Source of the DNA: Bacteroidota bacterium
Lineage (GTDB): Bacteria > Bacteroidota > Bacteroidia > Bacteroidales > Prolixibacteraceae
Direction: 5' to 3'
Assembly (NCBI GenBank): GCA_023251435.1
Contig: JAHEYU010000028.1
Coordinates: 1-64,000, forward strand
DNA: 64,000 nt
Positions 3,807 to 38,527 of the stretch are shown piece by piece. The notes beneath the pieces are model-generated. The model saw nothing but the letters and a program-made list of their open reading frames with translations. It was not told the origin of the DNA and ran no database searches. The position numbers and the translations under genes were made by a program. Within the stretch, counting starts at the first letter, position 1; each line of letters starts with the position of its first letter.

Positions 3807-3837
3807 TGAGTGATCAGTCGCAGTTGGCAAATAAAAT

Positions 3838-3900
3838 GATACGGGTTTCGCGTTACGAGTTGCGAAACTTTTAACCTGTAACCCGAAACCCGCAACTAAA
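3838..3900. repeat. Intergenic inverted repeat, ACCCGAAACCCG family
   Basis: GGGTTTCGCGTTACGAGTT and CTGTAACCCGAAACCCGCAA form an imperfect hairpin just before xseA. A relative of this element is fused into the 3' end of aroB (48650-48719). The likely mobility and function are unknown. Confidence 0.5.
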
Positions 3901-3905
3901 AAAAA

Positions 3906-5357
3906 ATGAACGACCAACAATTTTCACTATTCGAGCTTCAGCGACAGGTAAAAGGTAGTCTTGATGATACTTTTTCGATGCCAGTTTGGGTGAAAGCCGA
4001 AATCAGTGAAATGACCGTGAATCGCAGCGGGCATTGTTATCTCGATCTGGTAGAAACCGAAACAGGCACAGATAATGTAATTGCCCGTTGCCGCGCCACC
4101 ATCTGGTCGTACACTTTCCGAATGCTCAAACCATATTTTGAAACTACTACCGGACAGGTTTTTACTGAAGGGTTGAAAGTATTGCTGCAAGCCAAAGTCG
4201 AATACCACGAGGTGTATGGTTTTAGCTTGAATATTCGTGACATCGATCCGGTTTATACGCTGGGCGATCTGGCCAGGCAACGGCGCGAAATCATCCGCAG
4301 ACTGCAGGAAGATGGCGTTTTTGAAATGAACAAAGAGCTGGAATTGCCATTGGTTTCGCAACGGATAGCCATCATTTCATCGCCAACAGCTGCTGGCTTG
4401 CAGGATTTTTTAGATCAGTTGCACAACAACCCTCATCAGTTCGTTTTTTACACCAAACTTTTTCCGGCGGTGATGCAGGGCAACGAAGCTCCGAGAAGTA
4501 TCACCAACGCGCTCGACCAGATTTACGAATACGAAGACTGGTTTGATGTAGTGGTAATTATTCGTGGTGGTGGCGCGCAAATCGATCTGGCCTGTTTCGA
4601 TCAGTACGAACTGGCATTCAATGTGGCGCAATTCCCACTTCCGGTAGTTACCGGTATTGGCCATGATAAAGACGATACCGTAATTGATATGGTCGCACAC
4701 ACCCGCATGAAAACGCCCACCGCGGTAGCCGAATTCCTGATTTCGGGCGCCTTGCAATTTTCGCAGCAATTAAGCGAACTCGAAAAGCACTTTACCGAAC
4801 TGATTACCGATCAGCTCGAAGAAAATAAAAATCGTTTGAACGATGCAGCCGACCAGTTGAGTTTGCTCATCAAACAAATGATTGCAAAACAAACAAACAG
4901 ATTGGACATTGCCCGTATTCACCTGGCAAACCGGTCGGCAGCTTTCCTTAAAAGCCAGTTTTCGGAGTTGAAACAATTAACTTCCACCACAAAAAACCAG
5001 ACCAACAGGTTTGTTGCCCGCCAAAACCAACTGCTTATCCAATCGGGTAATAAGTTGAATTACACCTTCAGGGAACAAGTGATAAACAACAAAAACCTGC
5101 TGAAACAATATCAGAAACTTATTAAAATACGAAGTCTCGAATCTATCCGGACAGAAAAGAAAAACTTAAACCTGATTCAGGAAAAGCTTCGGCTGATTGA
5201 TCCTCAGAACATTTTGAAACGCGGATATTCGCTGACCTTAATGAATGGGAAGATTCTTAAATCGGTACAATTGATTAAAGAAGGCGATCGGCTCGAAACG
5301 CAGTTGCGCGATGGAAAGATTGAGAGCACAGTAGAAAAGACAATAAAAAGCGAATAA
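3906..5357 (+). CDS. xseA: Exodeoxyribonuclease VII large subunit
   Basis: 483 residues. An N-terminal OB-fold (about 10-105, FSLFELQRQVKGSLDDTF, VWVKAEISE) precedes the catalytic domain (about 125-340, ISSPTAAGLQDFLDQL, VVIIRGGGAQIDLACFD, PVVTGIGHDKDDTVIDMVAH) and a long coiled-coil C-terminal part. The complex degrades single-stranded DNA to oligonucleotides in the cytoplasm and needs several copies of the small XseB subunit. No xseB follows: gmk starts 6 bases after the stop. The small subunit must be encoded elsewhere or be overlooked. The two genes likely share a transcript. Confidence 0.93.
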   Translation: MNDQQFSLFELQRQVKGSLDDTFSMPVWVKAEISEMTVNRSGHCYLDLVETETGTDNVIARCRATIWSYTFRMLKPYFETTTGQVFTEGLKVLLQAKVEYHEVYGFSLNIRDIDPVYTLGDLARQRREIIRRLQEDGVFEMNKELELPLVSQRIAIISSPTAAGLQDFLDQLHNNPHQFVFYTKLFPAVMQGNEAPRSITNALDQIYEYEDWFDVVVIIRGGGAQIDLACFDQYELAFNVAQFPLPVVTGIGHDKDDTVIDMVAHTRMKTPTAVAEFLISGALQFSQQLSELEKHFTELITDQLEENKNRLNDAADQLSLLIKQMIAKQTNRLDIARIHLANRSAAFLKSQFSELKQLTSTTKNQTNRFVARQNQLLIQSGNKLNYTFREQVINNKNLLKQYQKLIKIRSLESIRTEKKNLNLIQEKLRLIDPQNILKRGYSLTLMNGKILKSVQLIKEGDRLETQLRDGKIESTVEKTIKSE

Positions 5358-5362
5358 AAATT

Positions 5363-5932
5363 ATGCACGGAAAACTTATCATATTTTCGGCACCTTCGGG
5401 TGCTGGTAAAACAACCATTGTACGGCACCTGCTCGACCGGGATTTGAATCTTGAATTCTCCATATCGGCCACAAGTCGCGGAATGCGGCACACCGAAACC
5501 AACGGGAAAGACTATTATTTCCTAACGCCGGAAGAATTCAGAAATAAAATTGACAACAATGAATTTCTGGAATGGGAAGAAGTTTATCAGGGAACTTACT
5601 ACGGAACGTTGAAATCGGAAGTCGAACGAATTCGCTCTGCCGGGAAGAATGTTATTTTTGACGTGGATGTGGTTGGCGGATGCAACATCAAAAAATACTA
5701 TGGCAACGAAGCTTTGGCTGTTTTCGTGCAACCTCCTTCGGTGGAGGAATTGCGCAACCGGCTGGTTTCACGCTCGACCGACGCGTTGGATGTGATTGAA
5801 AAACGGGTGGCAAAAGCCGAATACGAATTGACTTTTTCCAGTCAGTTTGACCGGATTATTGTAAATGAAGATCTTGCAAAAGCTTTTGAAGAAGCAGAAA
5901 AGTGCATTCGTGAGTTTATAGCAGTAAAATAG
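5363..5932 (+). CDS. gmk: Guanylate kinase
   Basis: 189 residues, the usual size. The P-loop is SGAGKT (12-17), followed by the GMP-binding stretch (SATSRGMRHTETNGKDYYF) and the lid region. It phosphorylates GMP to GDP with ATP. It sits 6 bases after xseA and about 90 bases before nadD, with a REP-like hairpin in the second gap. The grouping gmk-nadD is common in Bacteroidota. Confidence 0.95.
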   Translation: MHGKLIIFSAPSGAGKTTIVRHLLDRDLNLEFSISATSRGMRHTETNGKDYYFLTPEEFRNKIDNNEFLEWEEVYQGTYYGTLKSEVERIRSAGKNVIFDVDVVGGCNIKKYYGNEALAVFVQPPSVEELRNRLVSRSTDALDVIEKRVAKAEYELTFSSQFDRIIVNEDLAKAFEEAEKCIREFIAVK

Positions 5933-5939
5933 ATAACTT

Positions 5940-6003
5940 GTCATGCTGAACTGGTTTCAGCATCTCTCTAATTATGGAGACCCTGAAACGAGTTCATGGT
6001 GAC
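5940..6003. repeat. REP-like imperfect hairpin between gmk and nadD
   Basis: GTCATGCTGAACTGGTTTCAG at the left and CTGAAACGAGTTCATGGTGAC at the right form a 27-bp imperfect stem around a short loop. The word TCATGCTGAAC..GTTTCAGCATCTC is of a kind seen as a dispersed intergenic repeat in many bacteria. Confidence 0.6.
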
Positions 6004-6020
6004 TTTAAAAACACAGGATA

Positions 6021-6599
6021 ATGATTAAAACCGGACTCTACTTTGGCTCTTTCAACCCAATCCACGTCGGACACATGGCAATTGCCAATTTTATGGTCGA
6101 ATACACCGATATCGATCAGCTTTGGTTTGTGGTGAGTCCGCAAAATCCATTAAAAAAGAAGAAGACACTGCTCGACGATTATCAGCGGTTGGAGCTTGTA
6201 AACCGCGCTATTGGCGACGATCTTCGATTCAGGGCCTCCAAAGTTGAGTTCAATCTGCCCAAGCCGTCTTATACAATCGACACGCTGGCTTACCTGACTG
6301 AAAAATATCCGACGCACCAGTTTTTTATCCTGATGGGTACCGACAATCTGGATAACATTCACAAATGGAAAAATGCCGATGTTCTGCTGGCAAATTACGA
6401 TATCATTGTGTATCCGCGACCGGGATTCAAACCCGATACTGCCGTGAAGTATCCACGCGTGCAGGTTGCCAACGCCCCGCTCATGGAGATTTCGTCCACT
6501 TTTATCCGCGAATCGATCAAAGCAGGCAAGGATATTCGCCATTTTCTTCCGTATCGTGCCTGGGACTATTTGCAGCAAATGAATTTTTATAAAAAGTAA
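6021..6599 (+). CDS. nadD: Nicotinate-nucleotide adenylyltransferase
   Basis: 192 residues, normal length. The nucleotidyltransferase signature GSFNPIHVGH occupies residues 9-18, and the second motif ISSTFIRE lies near the C-terminus. MGTDNLDNIHKWKN is typical of NadD. The enzyme joins nicotinate mononucleotide to ATP-derived AMP, giving deamido-NAD in NAD biosynthesis. Confidence 0.94.
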   Translation: MIKTGLYFGSFNPIHVGHMAIANFMVEYTDIDQLWFVVSPQNPLKKKKTLLDDYQRLELVNRAIGDDLRFRASKVEFNLPKPSYTIDTLAYLTEKYPTHQFFILMGTDNLDNIHKWKNADVLLANYDIIVYPRPGFKPDTAVKYPRVQVANAPLMEISSTFIRESIKAGKDIRHFLPYRAWDYLQQMNFYKK

Positions 6600-6795
6600 A
6601 AAGAGTTTCGAAGCATGAGTCTGGAATGGCGAATAAAAAGACAATCGCGAAGGTTATTCAACCATGTCATTTTTATCATTCATAACTCAAAATCCTGCTT
6701 ACCAGTTGAACCTGTGAGAGATGCTTTCTGAGCTTGTCGAAGTAAGGTTACTAGGCTCATCGAAGTAACCGTCAGCTAATTACTGGCGGGGCAGT
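6600..6795. other. Gene-free stretch with partial repeat words
   Basis: No reading frame of interest. It contains CTGAGCTTGTCGAAG and a second CTCATCGAAG 28 bases on, with GGTTAC/GTAACC able to pair. These resemble degenerate dispersed intergenic repeats. No RNA gene is recognised. Confidence 0.4.
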
Positions 6796-7083
6796 CTATA
6801 GAATGCTATTTAAATCTTGTCTTCCAATAATTGCCATTATTTCAACTGTACCATTCTCTATTCTGTAATATATACTGTCAACCCCACAAACACACCGTCG
6901 ATATCCTTTTTTTATATAATCGACAGATTCAAACGAAAATGGTCGTTGAGCAATAATGTCAAAATAATCAAAAAAAGCATCGAAGTATTTATCAGCCAGG
7001 GTTATTCCAAACTTTTCAACTCCGTAATGATGAATTCTTATCAAGTCTTCCTTAGCTTCATTACTTAATCTATATTTGGCCAT
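6796..7083 (-). CDS. parE: ParE/RelE-superfamily toxin
   Basis: 95 residues. The fold pattern is YRLSNEAKEDLIRIHHYGVEKFG at the start, then RPFSFESVDYIKKGYRRCVCGVDSIYYRI and a C-terminal VEIMAIIGRQD, all as in ParE-type toxins (gyrase poisons in characterised members). The ATG at 7083 is preferred over the TTG three bases upstream. It overlaps the antitoxin gene by 14 bases, so the pair is translated as one unit. All core strands seem intact, so the toxin is probably functional. Confidence 0.85.
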   Translation of the reverse strand: MAKYRLSNEAKEDLIRIHHYGVEKFGITLADKYFDAFFDYFDIIAQRPFSFESVDYIKKGYRRCVCGVDSIYYRIENGTVEIMAIIGRQDLNSIL

Positions 7084-7585: not shown

Positions 7586-7642
7586 CTTTATTGGTTTGTC
7601 TGCAATGCTTTCTTCCCCCGATAAATTTTGAAAGGCATTAGC

Positions 7643-8173
7643 ATGACTGAGATTTCGAAAAATATACTGCTTATTTCAGGCTCCGGACGGAACATCGGGA
7701 AAACGAGTTTCATTCGCCGGGTGATAGCACAAAATGCAGATAAAAAACCTGTTGCCATCAAAATTACTCCACATTTCCATGAACCTACCGACGGATTGGT
7801 TGCAGTTTCGATCAATGACGGTTTTCGGGTTTATCAGGAAACAAATAATTCGTCTGACAAAGACAGCTCCTTGTTTTTGCAGGCTGGTGCCGAAAAAGTA
7901 TTTTACATTCAAACTTCTGATTTATACCTGAATGAGGCCTTCAGTTACATTGCAAATTTACTTTCAGCGCAACAACCAGTTATTGTAGAGTCAGCAGCTT
8001 TACGCAAATACATTGTTCCCGGGCTTTATATTTTCATTCAGAAAAAGGACGAAGACACTAAACAATCGGCCCTTGAAATGCAAAAACTGGCTGATAGGTC
8101 AATTGATTCTGAAAGCGGCCAATTCAGTATTGACCCGGCATTACTCACTTTTAATCAGACTTGGAAATTATGA
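7643..8173 (+). CDS. P-loop protein, MobB-like, of the molybdopterin operon
   Basis: About 176 residues. Near the N-terminus, SGSGRNIGKTSFIRR is a Walker A loop of the kind seen in MobB, the GTP-binding adaptor of molybdopterin guanine dinucleotide synthesis. SSLFLQAGAEKVFYIQ recalls the substrate-facing part of MobB. The rest is divergent. The ATG at 7643 is preferred over a TTG at 7628. It is first in the operon behind the riboswitch, and its stop overlaps the moeA start (ATGA). Exact function is uncertain, but a cofactor-related role is well supported by context. Confidence 0.6.
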   Translation: MTEISKNILLISGSGRNIGKTSFIRRVIAQNADKKPVAIKITPHFHEPTDGLVAVSINDGFRVYQETNNSSDKDSSLFLQAGAEKVFYIQTSDLYLNEAFSYIANLLSAQQPVIVESAALRKYIVPGLYIFIQKKDEDTKQSALEMQKLADRSIDSESGQFSIDPALLTFNQTWKL

Positions 8174-9345
8174 TAACATTAGAGCAAGCCATTGAAATTG
8201 CTTTTACTAACGCAGTGACTTTGGACATTGAAAAGGTTGATTTCATGCAGTCGGCCGGATGCATTCTGGCGCAGGATGTTTTTGCCGATGCCGATATGCC
8301 ACCTTTCAACAAATCGGCAATGGACGGATATGCTTGTCGTAGTGCAGATTTGGCGCTGGAACTTTCAGTTGTTGAGGTGATTCCGGCAGGTTATTCTCCG
8401 ACAAAAAAGATAGGACCAGGTGAATGTTCCAAAATTATGACCGGCGCACAGGTTCCCGAAGGTGCCGACAAGGTTTTTATGGTCGAATATTCAGTAGAAA
8501 CCGCTCCGGGGAAAGTGCGTTTTTCAGGAGAAAAAACCAACCCGAATATCTGTCAGAAAGGCGAAGACCTGAAAGCAGGCGATCTGGTTTTAAGTTCAGG
8601 AATATGGCTTAAACCGCAGCACATTGCCATGCTGGCATCGGTTGGATGCGTTCGGCCAACAGTTTACAAAAAACCACAAATCGGAATTATTTCAACCGGT
8701 TCAGAACTTGTTAATCCGGAACAGAAACCGCAGTCATCGCAAATTCGCAATTCAAACGGGCCGCAGCTTTACACACAGGCAACAGCTGTCGGATTTCCGG
8801 CTAATTACTACGGAATTGTGCCAGACGATAAGCAACTGACCCGTGAAATCATCCTGAAATCGGTAGCCGAAAACGATGTGACCATACTTTCAGGCGGCGT
8901 TTCGGTGGGCGATTTTGATTTTGTGCCACAGATTATCAGCGACTTGGGTTTCGAAATACATTTCAATAAAATCAGTATCAAACCCGGGCAGCATACCACA
9001 TTTGCATCGAAGGGGAAAAAATACATCGTCGGCTTGCCCGGAAACCCGGTTTCGTCATTCATTCAATTCGAGGTTTTTGTTTTGCCATTTCTCCGGAAGC
9101 TGATGAATTACACCCAACACGAAACCCGGATGGCATTGCCGATGAGTCATAAATTCAGCCGGAAGAAATCAGATCGGGAAGAATGTTTGCCAGTTCAGAT
9201 AACAGAACAGGATGAGGTTCGAATGGTTGATTATCATGGATCAGCGCACATTCATGCCTATCATCAGGCATCTGGGTTTATTAATATTCCGGCAGGAAAA
9301 ACGGAAATAAAAAAAGGAGAAATCGTTTATGTTCGACCGTTATAA
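8170..9345 (+). CDS. moeA: Molybdopterin molybdenumtransferase MoeA
   Basis: About 391 residues, the family's usual length. Conserved signatures are MPPFNKSAMDGYA near the N-terminus, PEGADKVFMVE, GIISTGSEL, and the catalytic TILSGGVSVGDFDFV. The glycine-rich GLPGNPVSSF is also present. MoeA inserts molybdate into adenylylated molybdopterin. The ATG at 8170 overlaps the previous stop; a TTG at 8161 is less likely. Its 3' end overlaps moaA by 17 bases, so the genes are translationally linked. Confidence 0.94.
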   Translation: MITLEQAIEIAFTNAVTLDIEKVDFMQSAGCILAQDVFADADMPPFNKSAMDGYACRSADLALELSVVEVIPAGYSPTKKIGPGECSKIMTGAQVPEGADKVFMVEYSVETAPGKVRFSGEKTNPNICQKGEDLKAGDLVLSSGIWLKPQHIAMLASVGCVRPTVYKKPQIGIISTGSELVNPEQKPQSSQIRNSNGPQLYTQATAVGFPANYYGIVPDDKQLTREIILKSVAENDVTILSGGVSVGDFDFVPQIISDLGFEIHFNKISIKPGQHTTFASKGKKYIVGLPGNPVSSFIQFEVFVLPFLRKLMNYTQHETRMALPMSHKFSRKKSDREECLPVQITEQDEVRMVDYHGSAHIHAYHQASGFINIPAGKTEIKKGEIVYVRPL

Positions 9346-10126
9346 CCGGGTCATCAATTATTTGCGTATTTCGGTAACCGACCGCTGCAACCTTCGCTGT
9401 ACCTATTGTATGCCCGAAGATGGCATTCAGTTACTCGATCATTCCGATATCCTGAGTTTTGAAGAAATCGCTGATTTTACACGGATGGCTGTGGCCAACG
9501 GAATTACCAAAGTACGGTTGACGGGTGGCGAACCGCTGGTACGAAAAAACATCGTCGAACTGGTTGCAATGCTTGCAGCAATCGACGGTTTAGAAGATTT
9601 GTCGATGACCACGAATGGAGTTCTTCTTTCGAAATTTGCCGTTGATCTTAAAAAAGCAGGACTCAACCGGATCAACATCAGTTTGGATACCGTTAATCCC
9701 GATAATTTTTGCCATATCACCCGAAACGGAGAACTGGCACAGGTTCTGGAAGGAATTGAGGCTGCCCGGAATGTTGGTTTGGAGCCAATAAAAATAAATT
9801 GTGTATTGCTTGGGCAGCCCGATGAAGAGACAAAAAAGCTAAAAGCCTATTGTGAGAATCGTGGTCTAAGTCTTCGGTTTATTCACCAGATGAATCTGAA
9901 AACCGGAGAGTTTTCGACTGTTGAAGGGGGCGAAGGGGGAAACTGCAAAAAATGCAACCGCGTCCGCTTGTTGGCCAATGGCGATATCAAACCCTGTTTG
10001 TTCAGCGATCTGGCCTATAATATTCGAAAACTGGGGCATCAGGAAGCGCTGAATCTTACTTTGGGCAATAAACCCCGAAGCGGGACTTACAACCAATCGG
10101 GGGAATTTTATAATATTGGAGGATAG
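9329..10126 (+). CDS. moaA: GTP 3',8-cyclase MoaA, short form
   Basis: 265 residues, about 60 shorter than classical MoaA (320-330). The radical SAM cluster motif CNLRCTYC, the GTP/SAM-site TGGEPL and the C-terminal cluster motif C-x2-C-x13-C (CKKCNRVRL...KPC) are all present. The GG tail needed for catalysis in MoaA ends the protein (YNIGG). The missing block is between the end of the barrel (LRFIHQMNL) and the C-terminal cluster. MoaA and MoaC convert GTP to cyclic pyranopterin monophosphate. It overlaps moeA, and moaC follows after a repeat-like gap. It is probably active, since all cluster ligands remain. Confidence 0.88.
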   Translation: MFDRYNRVINYLRISVTDRCNLRCTYCMPEDGIQLLDHSDILSFEEIADFTRMAVANGITKVRLTGGEPLVRKNIVELVAMLAAIDGLEDLSMTTNGVLLSKFAVDLKKAGLNRINISLDTVNPDNFCHITRNGELAQVLEGIEAARNVGLEPIKINCVLLGQPDEETKKLKAYCENRGLSLRFIHQMNLKTGEFSTVEGGEGGNCKKCNRVRLLANGDIKPCLFSDLAYNIRKLGHQEALNLTLGNKPRSGTYNQSGEFYNIGG

Positions 10127-10127
10127 C

Positions 10128-10190
10128 GACTTGCGACTAGCTTCTGGTAGCCAGCTGCTAGTTGCTAATTGCCAGCAGCTATAAACTAAA
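10128..10190. repeat. Word-like intergenic repeat (GCTAGTTGC / CAGCTGCTAG)
   Basis: The moaA-moaC gap holds iterated GACTAGCTTCTGGTAGCCAGC / GCTGCTAGTTGCTAATTGCCAGC words able to form hairpins. A relative lies at 25430-25490 between paaK and the ACT gene. Confidence 0.45.
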
Positions 10191-10199
10191 ATAGAGACT

Positions 10200-10646
10200 A
10201 TGAAAAAACTATCACATACCGACGAAAAAGGAAAGGCAAAAATGGTTGATGTCAGCCAAAAGCCTGATCAGGAAAGAGAAGCTGTTGCCTGCGGTTTTAT
10301 TAAGCTTCAGGCTGAAACGATTGAATTAATCCGTCAGAACCAGATGAAAAAGGGCGATGTGCTCACTGTTGCCGAAATTGCGGGAATTCAGGGGGCGAAA
10401 CGCACCGGGGAATTGATTCCACTCTGTCACCCGCTGCAACTCTGGAAAATAGATGTAAAATGCACCCTTCAGGAAAATGGAGTGCAGGCAGAATGCACAA
10501 CGCTTTGCTTTGGCAAGACCGGTGTTGAAATGGAAGCGCTTACAGGGGTGAATGTTGCGCTGCTCACGGTTTACGACATGTGCAAAGCAGTCGATAAAGA
10601 AATGGTGATCGAAAATGTTCATCTGGTAACAAAAACGAAAAAGTAA
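10200..10646 (+). CDS. moaC: Cyclic pyranopterin monophosphate synthase MoaC
   Basis: 148 residues. It contains KRTGELIPLCHPL, the conserved active-site block, and GKTGVEMEALTGV followed by ALLTVYDMCKAVDK. It acts after MoaA to form cyclic pyranopterin monophosphate. It is 4 bases before the MOSC-MogA fusion gene. Confidence 0.95.
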   Translation: MKKLSHTDEKGKAKMVDVSQKPDQEREAVACGFIKLQAETIELIRQNQMKKGDVLTVAEIAGIQGAKRTGELIPLCHPLQLWKIDVKCTLQENGVQAECTTLCFGKTGVEMEALTGVNVALLTVYDMCKAVDKEMVIENVHLVTKTKK

Positions 10647-10649
10647 ACA

Positions 10650-11627
10650 ATGGCAACAGAGAACCGACAACAAGACAACAAGACAACAAGACAACACAAT
10701 TTCATAAAAGTCCTTTCCGTCAACGTTTCCGAAAAAAAAGGAACGTTTAAAAAACCGGTTGAATTTATCCAACTCACCGAAATTGGCGTAGTTGGTGATG
10801 CCCATTCAGGGAAATGGCACCGGCAGGTTAGTTTACTGGCATCCGAAAGTATTTCCAAATTTTCGGAAGAAGCGGGTCGTTCGATAAAATATGGCGAGTT
10901 TGCTGAAAACATTACCACCGAAGGACTTTTACTGCACGAATGTAAACCGCTCGACCGGTTTATGAATGATCATCTGGAATTGGAAGTCACACAGATCGGT
11001 AAAAAATGCCACGGCGACAACTGTTCTATTTTTCGTGAAGTAGGCAATTGTGTGATGCCCAAAGAAGGAATATTTGCCCGTGTAATCAGAGGTGGAAATC
11101 TCAAAGCTGGCGACCAGCTGGACTATCTTCGCAAAGTAATCAACATTCACATTATCACCCTTAGCGATCGTGCCAGCGCCGGAGAATACGCAGACAAAAG
11201 CGGTCCGCAAATCCGCAACCTTGCAGAAAAGTATCTTTCAGGAATCAATCGTCCGACAGAATTCACACACCATTTGATACCCGACAATCCTGAAAGACTT
11301 ACATTGCTGATAAAAAATGCAATATTGGAGGGAGCCGACGTAATTTTCACTACCGGAGGTACCGGAATCGGACCCCGGGATATTACTCCGGAAACAGTTC
11401 GTCCCCTGCTCGAAAAAGAAATTCCGGGAATCATGGAACTGATCCGGGTAAAATACGGGATGGAAAAACCGGCTGCGCTTTTGAGTCGCGGCATTGCCGG
11501 TGTTTCAGGAAAGACGCTGATTTACTGCCTTCCTGGAAGTGTGAAAGCAGTAACCGAATATTGTAACGAAATTTTGCCCACCATCGAACACTCTATTTAC
11601 ATGATTGAAGGAATTGACAGCCATTAA
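10650..11627 (+). CDS. MOSC domain fused to MogA/MoaB-like domain
   Basis: 325 residues. The N-terminal half (about 20-150) is a MOSC domain with GVVGDAHSGKWHRQVSLLA and the Cys-containing QIGKKCHGDNCSIF. MOSC proteins bind or transfer sulfur and sulfur-cofactor species. The C-terminal half (about 160-325) is a MogA/MoaB molybdopterin adenylyltransferase with IITLSDRASAGEYADKSGP and TTGGTGIGPRDITPE. The fusion would supply adenylylated molybdopterin to MoeA, encoded earlier in the same operon. Genes for MoaD, MoaE and MoeB are not in this cluster. Confidence 0.9.
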   Translation: MATENRQQDNKTTRQHNFIKVLSVNVSEKKGTFKKPVEFIQLTEIGVVGDAHSGKWHRQVSLLASESISKFSEEAGRSIKYGEFAENITTEGLLLHECKPLDRFMNDHLELEVTQIGKKCHGDNCSIFREVGNCVMPKEGIFARVIRGGNLKAGDQLDYLRKVINIHIITLSDRASAGEYADKSGPQIRNLAEKYLSGINRPTEFTHHLIPDNPERLTLLIKNAILEGADVIFTTGGTGIGPRDITPETVRPLLEKEIPGIMELIRVKYGMEKPAALLSRGIAGVSGKTLIYCLPGSVKAVTEYCNEILPTIEHSIYMIEGIDSH

Positions 11628-33627: not shown

Positions 33628-33786
33628 TCCTGAAAATTTTACCTGAAACGACCATGCCACTGGAATAGTTTAAATTGAGGCTGAGCAAAAAGGAATGAAT
33701 TGGAACGAAGTGTAAATTTACTGGCATGGAGTTCCATCCGAACGTTTAATAATCAAATAATTAATAACTTTATTTTCGGATGAAAT

Positions 33787-33825
33787 AAAAATACCCGTCG
33801 GAGATAATCTGGCGGGTATTTTTTG
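33787..33825. terminator. Bidirectional terminator after the VOR operon
   Basis: AAAAATACCCG (33787-33797) pairs perfectly with CGGGTATTTTT (33813-33823), extended by two more pairs; T-rich on the plus strand and T-rich on the minus strand. It can end both the VOR operon and the minus-strand ATPase operon. Confidence 0.85.
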
Positions 33826-33875
33826 TATTTGTATCTAAATTGGTAATGTGGCAAAAATATGGAAACAGTAACCAA

Positions 33876-34478
33876 TTAATTGTATGCCACATTAAAATTT
33901 GAAAGATGAAGCATAGCTCTTTTCAAACTGTCGGAACGCTTCATCGCACGATTGACACTCCAATGTTTCATGACAAATTCACCTAATCGTCCGTTATAGT
34001 TTGGACCTACTGATGCAAATTCATTTTTAGGCAAAATATCTTCCTTTATTTTTCTGATCCTACAACGTTTCACTAATTGAAGAAGTTCTGCCTTGGGATC
34101 TGCAATTTCTTCAGAATTATCCCGAAAATTAGCTTCTGATAAGCCTATGTATTTTGAAAAACCCTCGACGTCTGCTAGTAACCATGCTTCCACTTCACGC
34201 ACCGCAATCCGGAAGATTAAATTTGGATGGGCGGATTTTCCAAGCCAACTATCTATTAAGGTTAGTGGGCATTCAACAGTATCTAAATCTGTCAATACAA
34301 AAAATGGGCATCCTTTTGCCGCTTCATTAAAACCGCCAATATTCTTTTTTATATAACCAAAACCACCTTCAGAATAAGAGTTTGCGATAAAATATTTCTT
34401 TGACTCTTCAGCAAGTTTTACCATAACCATCTCGCTGATTTCATCTTCAAATACCAGATTTAATGGAATTGGATTCAT
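33876..34478 (-). CDS. TOPRIM-like, DUF4276-like partner of an AAA ATPase
   Basis: 200 residues. Pattern of a divergent TOPRIM nuclease: an acidic residue E11 in NLVFEDEISE, then D64-x-D66 in VLTDLDTVE. The signature IAVREVEAWLLAD (91-103) is typical of DUF4276. It starts one base after the stop of the ATPase gene, so they form an operon. In RloB/AbiLii, PARIS and OLD systems, such a protein is the toxic nuclease partner of an ABC-type ATPase. No database was searched; the exact family is inferred. Confidence 0.65.
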   Translation of the reverse strand: MNPIPLNLVFEDEISEMVMVKLAEESKKYFIANSYSEGGFGYIKKNIGGFNEAAKGCPFFVLTDLDTVECPLTLIDSWLGKSAHPNLIFRIAVREVEAWLLADVEGFSKYIGLSEANFRDNSEEIADPKAELLQLVKRCRIRKIKEDILPKNEFASVGPNYNGRLGEFVMKHWSVNRAMKRSDSLKRAMLHLSNFNVAYN

Positions 34479-34479
34479 A

Positions 34480-35625
34480 CTAAAATTCCAGCGTAAGTTG
34501 GTTAATATCTTTGGGTTTTAGACGCGGAAGGATTGCAGAAGCCGGTGTCATACCACCTTTAAGCATATTCTTCACTTCTTCAATATCAGATGCCACACAA
34601 GCTTTAGTCCCTTCATTGGCTGGCTCAAGGACAACGACTTCATTTAAAGAAATACCTCTGTCGTTTAATAAATCGGAGCTATGCGTTGAAATGATCACTT
34701 GGCGTTTTCTGGGCTTTTGCAAGCGGTGAATTAAAGCGGCAAGTTTTGATACAATAGCCCCATTCAACGAAAGTTCCGGTTCTTCAAGAAGCAAAAGAGA
34801 ATCACCCTCCTGTAAAGCCCAAAGCAGACCAATTAACCTCAATGTCCCATCACTGAACTGGTCTTCTTTCTGTTTTCCTGCTCCTGGACGCCAATGTTTA
34901 TATATGGCTTCAATATGAGGATATCCATTCTCAGTTGCAAATTCAAGATGTTCAAGTTGCGGAACAGCAAGCTTTAAAGCCTGTTCAATTTTGCGAAGGA
35001 ATGACTTCCGTGTTTTTTCATTTACCTTAGCGACTCGCTCTAAAAATCCCTTTCCAAAAGGGTCTCCAGGCAAATCAGGCCCGGTGAAGGCGGACGGATA
35101 CTTTAATAATTGGGGAACGAGATGAAGGTATAAGGTATTTTCAAAAAAACGTACCACTTCTCTGAAATCCTTGTTGGTATTGATTTGTTCCAGATAAGTC
35201 TGAGTTAATCGTACAATATCCTTCTTGTCCTCTTCTTCTGGTCGGTTGACAATTAACTGATCACCTTCCCAAACTTTCTCATACGATAAATATGGTAAAC
35301 GATAACCCCTTGGTTCTTGAACAATTCCAATTCCATATTTCCATAGTACCACATCTGAACCAAACTCCGAAAGGTGAATTTCAATTTCAACATTGGGATT
35401 TTTTCGTGCGGCAAGAGAACGAATTTTTGTGATTCCACCCCGGTCAATTACGGCCTTTTGCAAGCCACCACCAGGCTTGGCGATATCTCGCAGAAACTTA
35501 AAAACATCCAAAAGATTAGACTTTCCTGATGCATTGGCACCAACAAGAATGACTCTTTCCTGAAGTTTGACATCCAGTTCTTTGAAGTTTTTCCAATTTC
35601 GTAGGATTAATCTTGATATGATCAT
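34480..35625 (-). CDS. ABC/SMC-like AAA ATPase (AAA_21 / OLD-like)
   Basis: 381 residues, whole ABC-type head: Walker A GANASGKS (29-36), ABC signature-like FSDGTLR (257-263), Walker B LLLLEEPELSL (277-287) with the catalytic Glu pair, and H-loop STHSSDLL (313-320). Encoded upstream of the TOPRIM-like gene with a one-base gap. Proteins of this kind act in phage defence as sensors or DNA-scanning motors. Lies between the VOR operon and dgt, both unrelated to defence by default. dgt starts upstream (35709), so the pair is probably transcribed from its own promoter. Confidence 0.8.
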   Translation of the reverse strand: MIISRLILRNWKNFKELDVKLQERVILVGANASGKSNLLDVFKFLRDIAKPGGGLQKAVIDRGGITKIRSLAARKNPNVEIEIHLSEFGSDVVLWKYGIGIVQEPRGYRLPYLSYEKVWEGDQLIVNRPEEEDKKDIVRLTQTYLEQINTNKDFREVVRFFENTLYLHLVPQLLKYPSAFTGPDLPGDPFGKGFLERVAKVNEKTRKSFLRKIEQALKLAVPQLEHLEFATENGYPHIEAIYKHWRPGAGKQKEDQFSDGTLRLIGLLWALQEGDSLLLLEEPELSLNGAIVSKLAALIHRLQKPRKRQVIISTHSSDLLNDRGISLNEVVVLEPANEGTKACVASDIEEVKNMLKGGMTPASAILPRLKPKDINQLTLEF

Positions 35626-35708
35626 CTTGAAATTTTTTACAATTTTACGGTTTTAAATGATTGATCGTTGTAATATATCTTTTTATCTTATTTCCCTTTT
35701 TCGTGTAT

Positions 35709-37046
35709 TTATACTCCCGGAATGTTAATTCCCTTTATTTTTCGATATAAATCGAGCGCGTATAAGTCGGTCATTCCCGAAACAAAATCAACGACTGCCT
35801 GCACTTTTTCGTAGGTCGAAGCATGGGTTCCGCGGTACTGATCGGGTAAGAGCATCAGCATCTTTTTCGAGATTCCCTCTTTCGGATTCAAAATAGCTTC
35901 AACAAAAACTTCTAGCAAAGTTCCGATAATCTGGTAGCCCGATATTTCGATTTCAATAACTGAACGGTCGTTGTAAATATTTCGGATACTTACATCTTTG
36001 ATTGTTTTCATTGCCTGCAGCGAAGTTGGATGAACATGATCAATCAGAGCTTTTTGGAAACTTCCGGATAAAATATCGTCTTGTTTTTCGCTGAAAACAT
36101 CGATGCACTGCTTTACCAGTTTTCCGATGACAGTGGCCCGCAGGTAGGCGATCTGTTCGTTTTTGTCGGCCACTACATCAAGCGTTTCGTTCATTCTGCC
36201 AATCTGCCGGGCTTCTGTTTGCGGATCAAAGAATCCCATCAGAAGCGACCGCGTCTGGTCGAAGGAATGAATTTTCAATTTGTGTGCATCTTCCAAATCC
36301 ATTAGCTGATAGCAAATGTCGTCGGCGGCTTCGACCAGAAACACCAGTGGATGCCGGACGAATTTTGCCGGATTTCCTGATAATTGCAACAATCCCAATT
36401 CATTGGCAATGCGCTCAAAAATAGCTTTCTCCGACTGAAAAAAACCGAACTTGGGTTTGTCGGTCAGCATCGATTCGAACGGATATTTTACAATAGATGC
36501 CAGTGTGGTGTAGGTCAGCGCAAAACCGCCATCGCGCCGTCCGTTAAACTGGTGGCTCAACAGCCTGAAGGCATTTGCATTTCCATCGAATTGGGTAAAA
36601 TCTTTCCGTTGCGTGTCCGAAAGTTCAGCCTGCAAGCGAGGCTCACTGCTTTTCTTGAAAAACTGCGCAATGGCATCTTCTCCGGAATGTCCAAACGGCG
36701 GATTTCCCATGTCGTGAGCCAGGCATGCAGCCGAAACCACCGATCCGATCTCCTGAAAAAGCGGGTTTTCGATTTCCATTCTGTCGTTTTCTGCTTTTTC
36801 AACGAACATGCTTCCCAGCGAACGGCCTACGCTGGCAACTTCGAGACTATGTGTTAGCCTGTTGTGTACAAATACGCTTCCTGGCAGTGGAAAAACCTGT
36901 GTTTTATTCTGCATCCTCCGGAAAGGCGACGAGAAAATAATTCGGTCGTAATCGCGCTGAAACTGCGTACGGCTATGTTTATTATCTTTTTTCACAAGCT
37001 GTTCCTGCCCAAGACGGGTAGTCGATATTATTTGATTCCAATTCAT
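35709..37046 (-). CDS. dgt: Deoxyguanosinetriphosphate triphosphohydrolase
   Basis: 445 residues. HD-domain signatures: RRMQNKTQVFPLP, RLTHSLEVASVGRSLG, CLAHDMGNPPFGHSGEDA. Hydrolyses dGTP to deoxyguanosine and tripolyphosphate, and shapes the dNTP pool. In some bacteria dNTPases of this group also limit phages, but this copy has the usual housekeeping form. 14 bases after the YgjP-like gene on the same strand. Confidence 0.92.
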   Translation of the reverse strand: MNWNQIISTTRLGQEQLVKKDNKHSRTQFQRDYDRIIFSSPFRRMQNKTQVFPLPGSVFVHNRLTHSLEVASVGRSLGSMFVEKAENDRMEIENPLFQEIGSVVSAACLAHDMGNPPFGHSGEDAIAQFFKKSSEPRLQAELSDTQRKDFTQFDGNANAFRLLSHQFNGRRDGGFALTYTTLASIVKYPFESMLTDKPKFGFFQSEKAIFERIANELGLLQLSGNPAKFVRHPLVFLVEAADDICYQLMDLEDAHKLKIHSFDQTRSLLMGFFDPQTEARQIGRMNETLDVVADKNEQIAYLRATVIGKLVKQCIDVFSEKQDDILSGSFQKALIDHVHPTSLQAMKTIKDVSIRNIYNDRSVIEIEISGYQIIGTLLEVFVEAILNPKEGISKKMLMLLPDQYRGTHASTYEKVQAVVDFVSGMTDLYALDLYRKIKGINIPGV

Positions 37047-37822: not shown

Positions 37823-38527
37823 ATGGAACAGAACAAACGATTTGAAGTTTTTGGAACCTTAACAAAAACAGAAACAGTTTTTACAATCGATCAGAAAATT
37901 CTTCCCGGCACTTTGGTATTTGAAGCATTAAAACCTTTCCCTGGTTATTATTACGACACGCCTATGGGTTCGAAGCCTGTTTATCTTTATTTGGCGCTCG
38001 AAGAACAATATACACTCGAAGATATTTTGCGGGCTTCACAAAAAGTTCAGCACGAGTTTGTTGCACCTTTTGATGCGGGAAAAGGGTTTTTGCATATTTA
38101 TGACACTACGTACAATGTGTTGCGCGTAAGACACTTAAAAAATTACGACTTACTCGAAAAACTGCAGCAATCGTTTGTCGATAATGGAATCAATTTTTTG
38201 CAAAAATCGAAAAAATTCAAAGACGAGTTTGTAAAGATCAGGATTATCAAATTCTTTTCGCTCGAAGAAATTGCGGAAAGTATCTTTCTGGATAAACGTG
38301 AAAAAAATCACGCCTACATTGAAATACCACGTCATTTGAAATGGGAGGAATTTGATTCTATTACCAATAAAGTTAAACACAATTGGGTGGACAGTAAATT
38401 TGATGCCGCAATGGCTTCTTTTTATTACGACGGCAGTTTGCACGAAGTTGTTCGCGTTTATTCCGGGAAAATTGATATTGAATATTTACAGGAATTACGG
38501 AAATTGTATCTGGATAAAATGAAATAG
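37823..38527 (+). CDS. Conserved protein of unknown function
   Basis: 234 residues, no signal peptide, rich in Lys, Phe, Glu. I do not recognise a family. Features: a central hydrophobic PGYYYDTPMGSKPVYLYLALEE segment and DFDS-like charged C-terminal helices (HEVVRVYSGKIDIEYLQELRKLYL). Stand-alone, divergent from the YgjP-like gene, and closed by a strong terminator. Confidence 0.7.
   Translation: MEQNKRFEVFGTLTKTETVFTIDQKILPGTLVFEALKPFPGYYYDTPMGSKPVYLYLALEEQYTLEDILRASQKVQHEFVAPFDAGKGFLHIYDTTYNVLRVRHLKNYDLLEKLQQSFVDNGINFLQKSKKFKDEFVKIRIIKFFSLEEIAESIFLDKREKNHAYIEIPRHLKWEEFDSITNKVKHNWVDSKFDAAMASFYYDGSLHEVVRVYSGKIDIEYLQELRKLYLDKMK

Follow-up and report, generated by a model that had tools for sequence, protein, structure and literature searches.

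A HEC-01-type pair of an ABC ATPase and a putative TOPRIM-like nuclease as a candidate immune module in a Bacteroidota genome

Two genes lie one base apart on the minus strand of a contig from a Bacteroidota bacterium, and the question that they raise is what an ATPase and a small protein, encoded in such close order, do for their host. The window analysed here is the whole 64,000-nucleotide stretch of this contig. A preliminary description had taken the genes for an ABC-type ATPase joined to a TOPRIM/DUF4276-like protein, a candidate defence pair that does not fit one named system. The reading as a candidate defence pair is supported and the lack of a named system is not, since both halves match the PADLOC candidate type HEC-01, after which they are named below. 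Both open reading frames were recovered as first described, and in the ORF list the single base 34479 separates the ATPase stop codon from the ATG of the small gene.

33876-34478, minus strand: HEC-01B small-protein gene, 200 aa, ATG start, downstream of the ATPase gene
34480-35625, minus strand: HEC-01A ATPase gene, 381 aa, ATG start, upstream member of the pair

The surroundings of the pair are ordinary, and a Pfam scan found no defence gene among its five neighbours. On the plus strand at 37823-38527, a 234-aa open reading frame has no Pfam family above cut-off. A promoter scan returned no minus-strand match ahead of the pair, with a sigma-70 consensus that may not be the host's, and one plus-strand match where 6.1 were expected from shuffled sequences.

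Judged by profile matches and a structural model, the upstream gene, called complete in the preliminary description, is an OLD/RecF-like ABC-type ATPase with intact motifs. It matches PF13304 in Pfam (E 3.2e-35) and, over residues 1-379 on profile positions 1-380 of 382, the PADLOC model PDLC04180 (E 1.6e-151, 503 bits); no NCBIfam family lies above its cut-off among the best 25 of 78 matched. The motifs GANASGKSN, SDGTLR and LLLLEEPE, which we take to be Walker A, the ABC signature and Walker B, are accompanied by H315. Their key residues are near-invariant in the 76 sequences of the family set, window included: G34, K35 and S36 of Walker A in 74 each, S258, D259 and G260 of the signature and E281/E282 of Walker B in all 76, and H315 in 75. 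The AlphaFold2 model (pLDDT 90.5) matches PtuA, Rad50 and GajA in Foldseek at E of about 1e-12 to 1e-14. Compared as a profile with PDB sequences, the ATPase finds GajA best, then OLD, and also PtuA, retron ATPases and AriA.

The small protein matches the PADLOC model PDLC04194 nearly over its full length (E 4.1e-62, 208 bits), and no NCBIfam family was found for it. Its match to DUF4276 (PF14103), which the preliminary description had suggested along with PF13304, is real though sub-threshold, at 29.3 bits against a Pfam gathering cut-off of 30.2. Comparison by hhalign with nine DUF4276 proteins gives 96.7% probability (E 3.5e-10, 178 columns), and these profile comparisons support a remote homology between HEC-01B and DUF4276. 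Unrelated controls reach 0.5% (the ATPase alignment) and 0.1% (the alignment of the restriction enzymes described below), all of these probabilities being single pairwise comparisons. The DUF4435 and RloB affinities also considered at the outset were not borne out by sequence profiles. Pfam shows no PF14491 or PF13707 match up to E 0.1, and hhalign gives 0.1% with DUF4435 (three sequences, a small alignment), 0.4% with RloB and a weak 16% with the OLD TOPRIM domain. The method is insensitive among TOPRIM subfamilies, because RloB against DUF4276 gives just 20%.

Across the 76 small proteins, E11, G39, D64, C70, W78, R90, E95, E97, W99, K129 and G158 are present in every sequence, and D66 in 75; the glutamate, the DxD and the conserved block (AVREVEAW) singled out in the preliminary description are thus nearly invariant among relatives. 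A TOPRIM motif consists of a glutamate after strand 1 and a DxD after strand 3. The AlphaFold2 model (pLDDT 92, pTM 0.89) predicts strands at 4-9, 29-35, 59-64 and 87-92 and helices at 13-26, 42-53 and 71-79, an order b-a-b-a-b-a-b that we take to be that of TOPRIM domains. In the model, E11 follows strand 1, D64xD66 ends strand 3 and E95xE97 follows strand 4. HEC-01B is therefore described here as a probable, still putative, TOPRIM-like nuclease with a conserved acidic site. In the accessible part of PMC7049728, the OLD TOPRIM enzymes, which cut DNA, hold metal A by E377, D431 and D433 and metal B by D381, S478 and E480. This ligand order is similar to that of HEC-01B, and by analogy we infer that E95 and E97 would serve metal B.

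The want of a TOPRIM fold in a structure prediction, which the preliminary description had said would refute it, did not come about: the modelled topology is TOPRIM-like, though no structure search gave a significant match. Foldseek found nothing in the PDB at E <= 0.001, the best match being a designed Rossmann protein (E 0.077), with GajA at ranks 20, 22 and 48 among the matches listed (TMq 0.36-0.38). Nothing in BFVD reached E <= 0.001 either; the top match was an RloB-like protein (probability 1.00, TMq 0.51, E 0.013). When the small-protein alignment was used as a profile against the PDB, it met only two unrelated entries, one being the repeat protein 6nyr, matched in weak pieces (E 3.9e-05). 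The alignments behind the structure models held 71 and 65 rows, window included, after gappy or long rows had been removed by hand. The missing match to a solved TOPRIM structure would suit a partner that is catalytically idle, binding DNA or playing a structural part with a mere resemblance to TOPRIM. Such a partner is very improbable given that E11, D64, E95 and E97 are kept in 76 of 76 sequences and D66 in 75, despite a mean identity of 43%.

Searching GTDB genomes with the small protein yielded 198 candidate stretches, of which 126 were confirmed as relatives, and the best 80 loci were kept. They come from Bacteroidota, Nitrospirota, Cyanobacteriota, Acidobacteriota, Planctomycetota, Pseudomonadota and other phyla. 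In 79 of these 80 loci (best 80 of 126 relatives), the gene immediately upstream, on the same strand, encodes an ATPase homologue, and in the exception, L059, the contig end falls inside the small gene. Among the 79 paired loci, the genes share exactly 4 or 1 bases in 43 and leave a gap of 1-4 bases in 17, and the spacing is between -10 and +10 bases in 71; L052 has 170 bases between the genes, and over-long predicted starts affect the spacing in L063 and L065. Pairwise distances of ATPases and small proteins correlate over 73 rows (r = 0.78), a value that none of 2000 permutations attained (maximum 0.25). Chance falls far short of explaining such pairing. The ATPases are on average 55% identical and the small proteins 43%, and pairing, co-divergence and identities together describe a stable unit of two genes, of which the smaller evolves faster. 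The conservation sets hold 76 sequences each, window included, after 4 of 79 ATPases had been dropped for length and 5 of 80 small proteins as short (three) or with over-long predicted starts (two).

Such a unit is accessory in its own genus. Judged by the small protein alone, all 22 genomes compared from the genus lack the small gene, three of their assemblies being less than 85% complete; G014 and G020 gave partial matches only (28 and 56 residues, E 6e-4 and 8e-4). Within the phylum it occurs in 5 of 395 genomes at E <= 1e-20, its own included. The universal conservation as core genes that the preliminary description had named as an argument against its reading was thus not found. In G015, one of these same-genus genomes, the flanking genes (an oxidoreductase gamma gene and a dGTPase-like gene) are 98% and 96% identical to those of the window, and the gap between them measures 84 bp as against 2081 bp in the window. 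A blastn comparison with this site (L134) shows homology ending at 33648, matching at 33780-33831 and resuming at 35710.

33832-35709 (approximate ends), no strand assigned: insert relative to the G015 empty site, comprising both genes with 44 bp on the lower side and 84 bp on the upper
33787-33823, plus strand: intrinsic-terminator-like hairpin with a 16-pair stem and a T tail, beside the insert and also present at the empty site

Besides the pair, the ORF list of the insert contains no integrase, transposase or recombinase-sized reading frame. Absence from the genus, together with the empty site in G015, therefore identifies the pair as a bare insert without an integrase, and a core housekeeping role is ruled out on the same two grounds. 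GC content at third codon positions is 0.33 and 0.28 in the pair as against 0.40-0.54 in seven nearby genes. The terminator stretch 33780-33831 is common to the window and G015; the terminator scan alone is no evidence, because it found 2 sites in the region where shuffled sequences predict 2.1. Between the oxidoreductase gene and the terminator, 131 bp (33649-33779) are unmatched in G015 and may be a second small insertion. The dGTPase-like neighbour was considered as a part of the module and rejected, being present in 21 of the 22 same-genus genomes, all of which lack the small gene.

An all-against-all comparison of 410 neighbour genes of the relatives yielded two recurrent partners, a type III-like methylase and a restriction enzyme. 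The methylase occurs in 10 of 80 loci (best 80 of 126 relatives); the restriction enzyme occurs in 9 of 80, each time together with the methylase. In L022, the methylase matches PF01555 and PADLOC MTase_III (PDLC03632, E 1.3e-150), and the 943-aa restriction enzyme scores 1094 bits with NCBIfam NF046055 against a cut-off of 800. The pair sits between the two in the order mod-A-B-res in 8 of 9 loci, and the order is A-B-mod-res in L084. Under a longest-ORF rule, the nearest genes of at least 100 aa on each side amount to 152, all scanned with PADLOC; MTase_III (PDLC03632) is matched by 8 of them at E <= 1e-15. Controls were 150 of 180 genes from seven genomes of the window's class, whose phylum spread differs from that of the loci, and none of the 150 matches the L022 methylase or restriction enzyme. 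A Fisher test of 8/152 against 0/150 gives p 0.007, computed post hoc when the pattern was already known. Control genes match 43 PADLOC families, with no restriction family among the 25 listed. Raw PADLOC matches are unspecific for this reason, and the argument therefore rests on the restriction genes. On a quickly built ATPase tree, in which 21 of 73 inner branches are weakly supported, the restriction-modification (R-M) label, carried by 9 rows, must have been gained or lost at least 8 times; it covers 9 of the 10 R-M loci, the L030 ATPase being among the dropped rows. The window's nearest rows are L009 and L010, both from Nitrospirota and with the order mod-A-B-res, and L011, which has a type IIG enzyme.

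Other defence genes adjoin the pair sporadically. Type IIG enzymes lie upstream in L011 and L071, HmaA lies just upstream in L088, and an HmaC-like ATPase just upstream in L062. Among neighbour families, described from the 25 commonest of 47 and of 76, further PADLOC matches pooled over the nearest neighbours are AbiD, PDC-S70 and PDC-M30A. With these pooled matches set aside, no defence gene is pinned down in 65 of 80 loci, and metabolic genes are among the neighbours that recur elsewhere (ketol-acid reductoisomerase, CTP synthase, cytidylyltransferase). The defence-island analysis of relatives suggested in the preliminary description thus shows R-M, type IIG and Hma neighbours in some relatives, while the Pfam scan recognised none beside the window copy. 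In L066, a second, divergent HEC-01A-like ATPase (7633-8919; PDLC04184, E 1.1e-63) is encoded some 1.1 kb farther downstream than the pair, so that two HEC-01 modules may adjoin each other there. In L030, the methylase and restriction genes (3837-6852 and 9308-11135) are split into several reading frames and are probably interrupted, with the small gene between them open.

The scarcity of defence neighbours bears on a different account, in which the pair is not specific to immunity and is instead a selfishly spreading module, toxin-antitoxin-like or for DNA repair, that only sometimes settles beside restriction systems. The 65 loci without a pinned-down defence neighbour and the window copy without any recognised by the Pfam scan speak for it, and a tight two-gene operon in a bare insertion is compatible with an addiction module. 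Against this stand the repeated restriction linkage, gained or lost at least 8 times on the ATPase tree for 9 rows that carry it, and the 0 of 150 control genes that match either restriction partner. We regard this account as unlikely.

The restriction enzymes of these loci appear to be self-sufficient, as six aligned proteins keep a C-terminal PDF...LETKG, a PD-(D/E)XK-like motif. The idea that these restriction loci lack a nuclease and make use of the TOPRIM protein instead is rejected on this motif together with the NF046055 score in L022. For an NF046055 enzyme acting in trans, the window's own genome yields three weak matches below cut-off, on contig C136. At 8586-11207 of C136 (genome G000; L218-L220) lies a 960-aa reading frame with weak restriction-subunit likeness, at best 37 bits with NF046055; a restriction partner in trans is, on this sequence likeness, possible.

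With a probability of about 0.72, and on the strength of sequence comparison and predicted structures, we propose that the pair is a horizontally acquired two-gene candidate immune module of the HEC-01 type, best read as an OLD/PARIS-like ATPase with a TOPRIM nuclease. The ATPase would assemble with the small protein and hold HEC-01B inactive until infection is sensed, most plausibly as a phage attack on restriction or DNA-processing machinery. The TOPRIM protein would then be released or activated and cut nucleic acid by two-metal catalysis, with E11, D64 and D66 as predicted ligands of metal A and probably E95 and E97 of metal B. Phage growth would be halted through damage to or arrest of the host cell. 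The module may possibly be a backup that acts once restriction fails. The closest system with a worked-out mechanism is PARIS, whose AriA protein detects the anti-restriction protein Ocr, and modules built around OLD-ABC proteins in BREX loci are called a likely backup effector layer (both in the accessible portion of PMC12839542, 2026). The type III sandwich (mod-A-B-res) fits this backup-effector theme by analogy. AriB cuts tRNA, as excerpts of PMC12409363 state, and RNA, tRNA in particular, would be slightly preferred to DNA as the target of HEC-01B.

Against the proposed immune module stand the non-significant structure matches of the small protein, its weak or missing profile links to RloB, DUF4435 and OLD TOPRIM, the window copy and the 65 loci without a recognised defence neighbour, and a further set of results. 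Searches of 72,556 plasmid and 50,697 phage records found no relative of the small protein, and the 29 IMG/VR stretches matched by one peptide pattern include none that was confirmed, which we would not expect of a widely mobile module. The ATPase has no match on plasmid and phage records at the strict limits E 1e-30 and 1e-20.

The choice of target separates the proposed mechanism from one in which a split OLD/Gabija-like nuclease nicks or degrades invading DNA, the ATPase is a nucleotide-gated regulator, and no host tRNA is involved. Its case comprises the ATPase profile, whose best PDB matches are GajA and then OLD, the restriction enzymes that adjoin the pair in some relatives, and the cutting of DNA by OLD TOPRIM enzymes of similar ligand pattern (PMC7049728, accessible part). 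However, AriB, like HEC-01B a TOPRIM protein in a gene separate from its ATPase, is an RNase (available portions of PMC12409363 and PMC10568477), and the restriction loci have a nuclease of their own in the six aligned proteins with PDF...LETKG. A DNA-acting module of this kind is a serious possibility that we nonetheless judge to be short of probable.

Within the proposed immune module, the subfamily could be more specifically a guard of type III-like restriction, an idea that we hold tentatively and think rather doubtful. In the mod-A-B-res operons, the ATPase would monitor the restriction complex and the TOPRIM protein would turn into a suicide nuclease once a phage inhibitor has disabled that complex, and solitary copies such as that of the window would guard a restriction or replication complex in trans. 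The window copy would act either alone or as such a guard of something in trans.

Because the pair belongs to a listed candidate type, it is not new as a kind. In the literature searched, which was mostly open-access and without preprints, no functional study of HEC-01, no report of the mod-A-B-res arrangement and no papers on DUF4276/PF14103 were found; in the portions of that literature available, HEC-01 is merely listed among predicted systems. The recurrence of mod-A-B-res supplies a concrete and testable hypothesis about the trigger, phage anti-restriction. If true, a TOPRIM effector would join the immune modules that punish attacks on restriction, and the conserved residues of HEC-01A and HEC-01B point out the mutants worth making.

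Among named systems, HEC-01 ("Hma-embedded candidate", PADLOC-DB 2.0) comprises the same pair, its A and B models scoring 503 and 208 bits. It has at least 28 sub-models among the matches listed, and the window pair belongs to the PDLC04180/PDLC04194 subfamily. HEC types were discovered through embedding in other defence loci, according to the available part of PMC12988326. Embedding in an Hma or other defence locus is seen in some relatives and not among the five neighbours in the window; we take it that not every HEC-01 copy need be embedded. In the window's subfamily, type III-like R-M neighbours (10 of 80 loci) are commoner than Hma (2 of 80).

PARIS likewise encodes its ATPase and TOPRIM protein in separate genes, and the window ATPase matches the AriA model (112 bits) as well as AriA chains in the PDB. 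AriB carries a DUF4435 domain, whereas none was found in HEC-01B, which has no AriB model among the 19 PADLOC families it matched. Membership of PARIS is ruled out by the lack of PF14491 up to E 0.1 and the 0.1% hhalign probability (three DUF4435 sequences). OLD and GajA share with the pair an ABC ATPase and the order of TOPRIM-type motifs, but combine both domains in one protein, and Gabija adds the helicase GajB (PMC10568477, in the part available). Two separate reading frames and no helicase beside the window pair exclude it from Gabija and OLD.

RloAB and AbiLi-AbiLii consist of an ATPase and an RloB-type partner. The window ATPase matches the AbiLi model, and an RloB-like protein is the top BFVD match of HEC-01B; however, the ATPase scores 503 bits with HEC-01A as against 81 with AbiLi, and no sequence-profile link joins the small protein to RloB. 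Membership is ruled out, with no PF13707 match up to E 0.1 and 0.4% in hhalign.

The last comparison concerns PrrC, a nucleic-acid-cutting effector that is silenced by a linked type I R-M system and activated by a phage anti-restriction factor (PMC2610378, as far as its available text goes). Some HEC-01 relatives resemble it in the genetic linkage of a putative effector to an R-M enzyme. To our knowledge, PrrC is not a TOPRIM protein. The R-M neighbour of HEC-01 differs in being type III-like, and silencing by R-M is hypothetical for HEC-01; by analogy, a guard of the kind outlined above would correspond to PrrC, with a TOPRIM protein as effector and type III-like R-M as its context.
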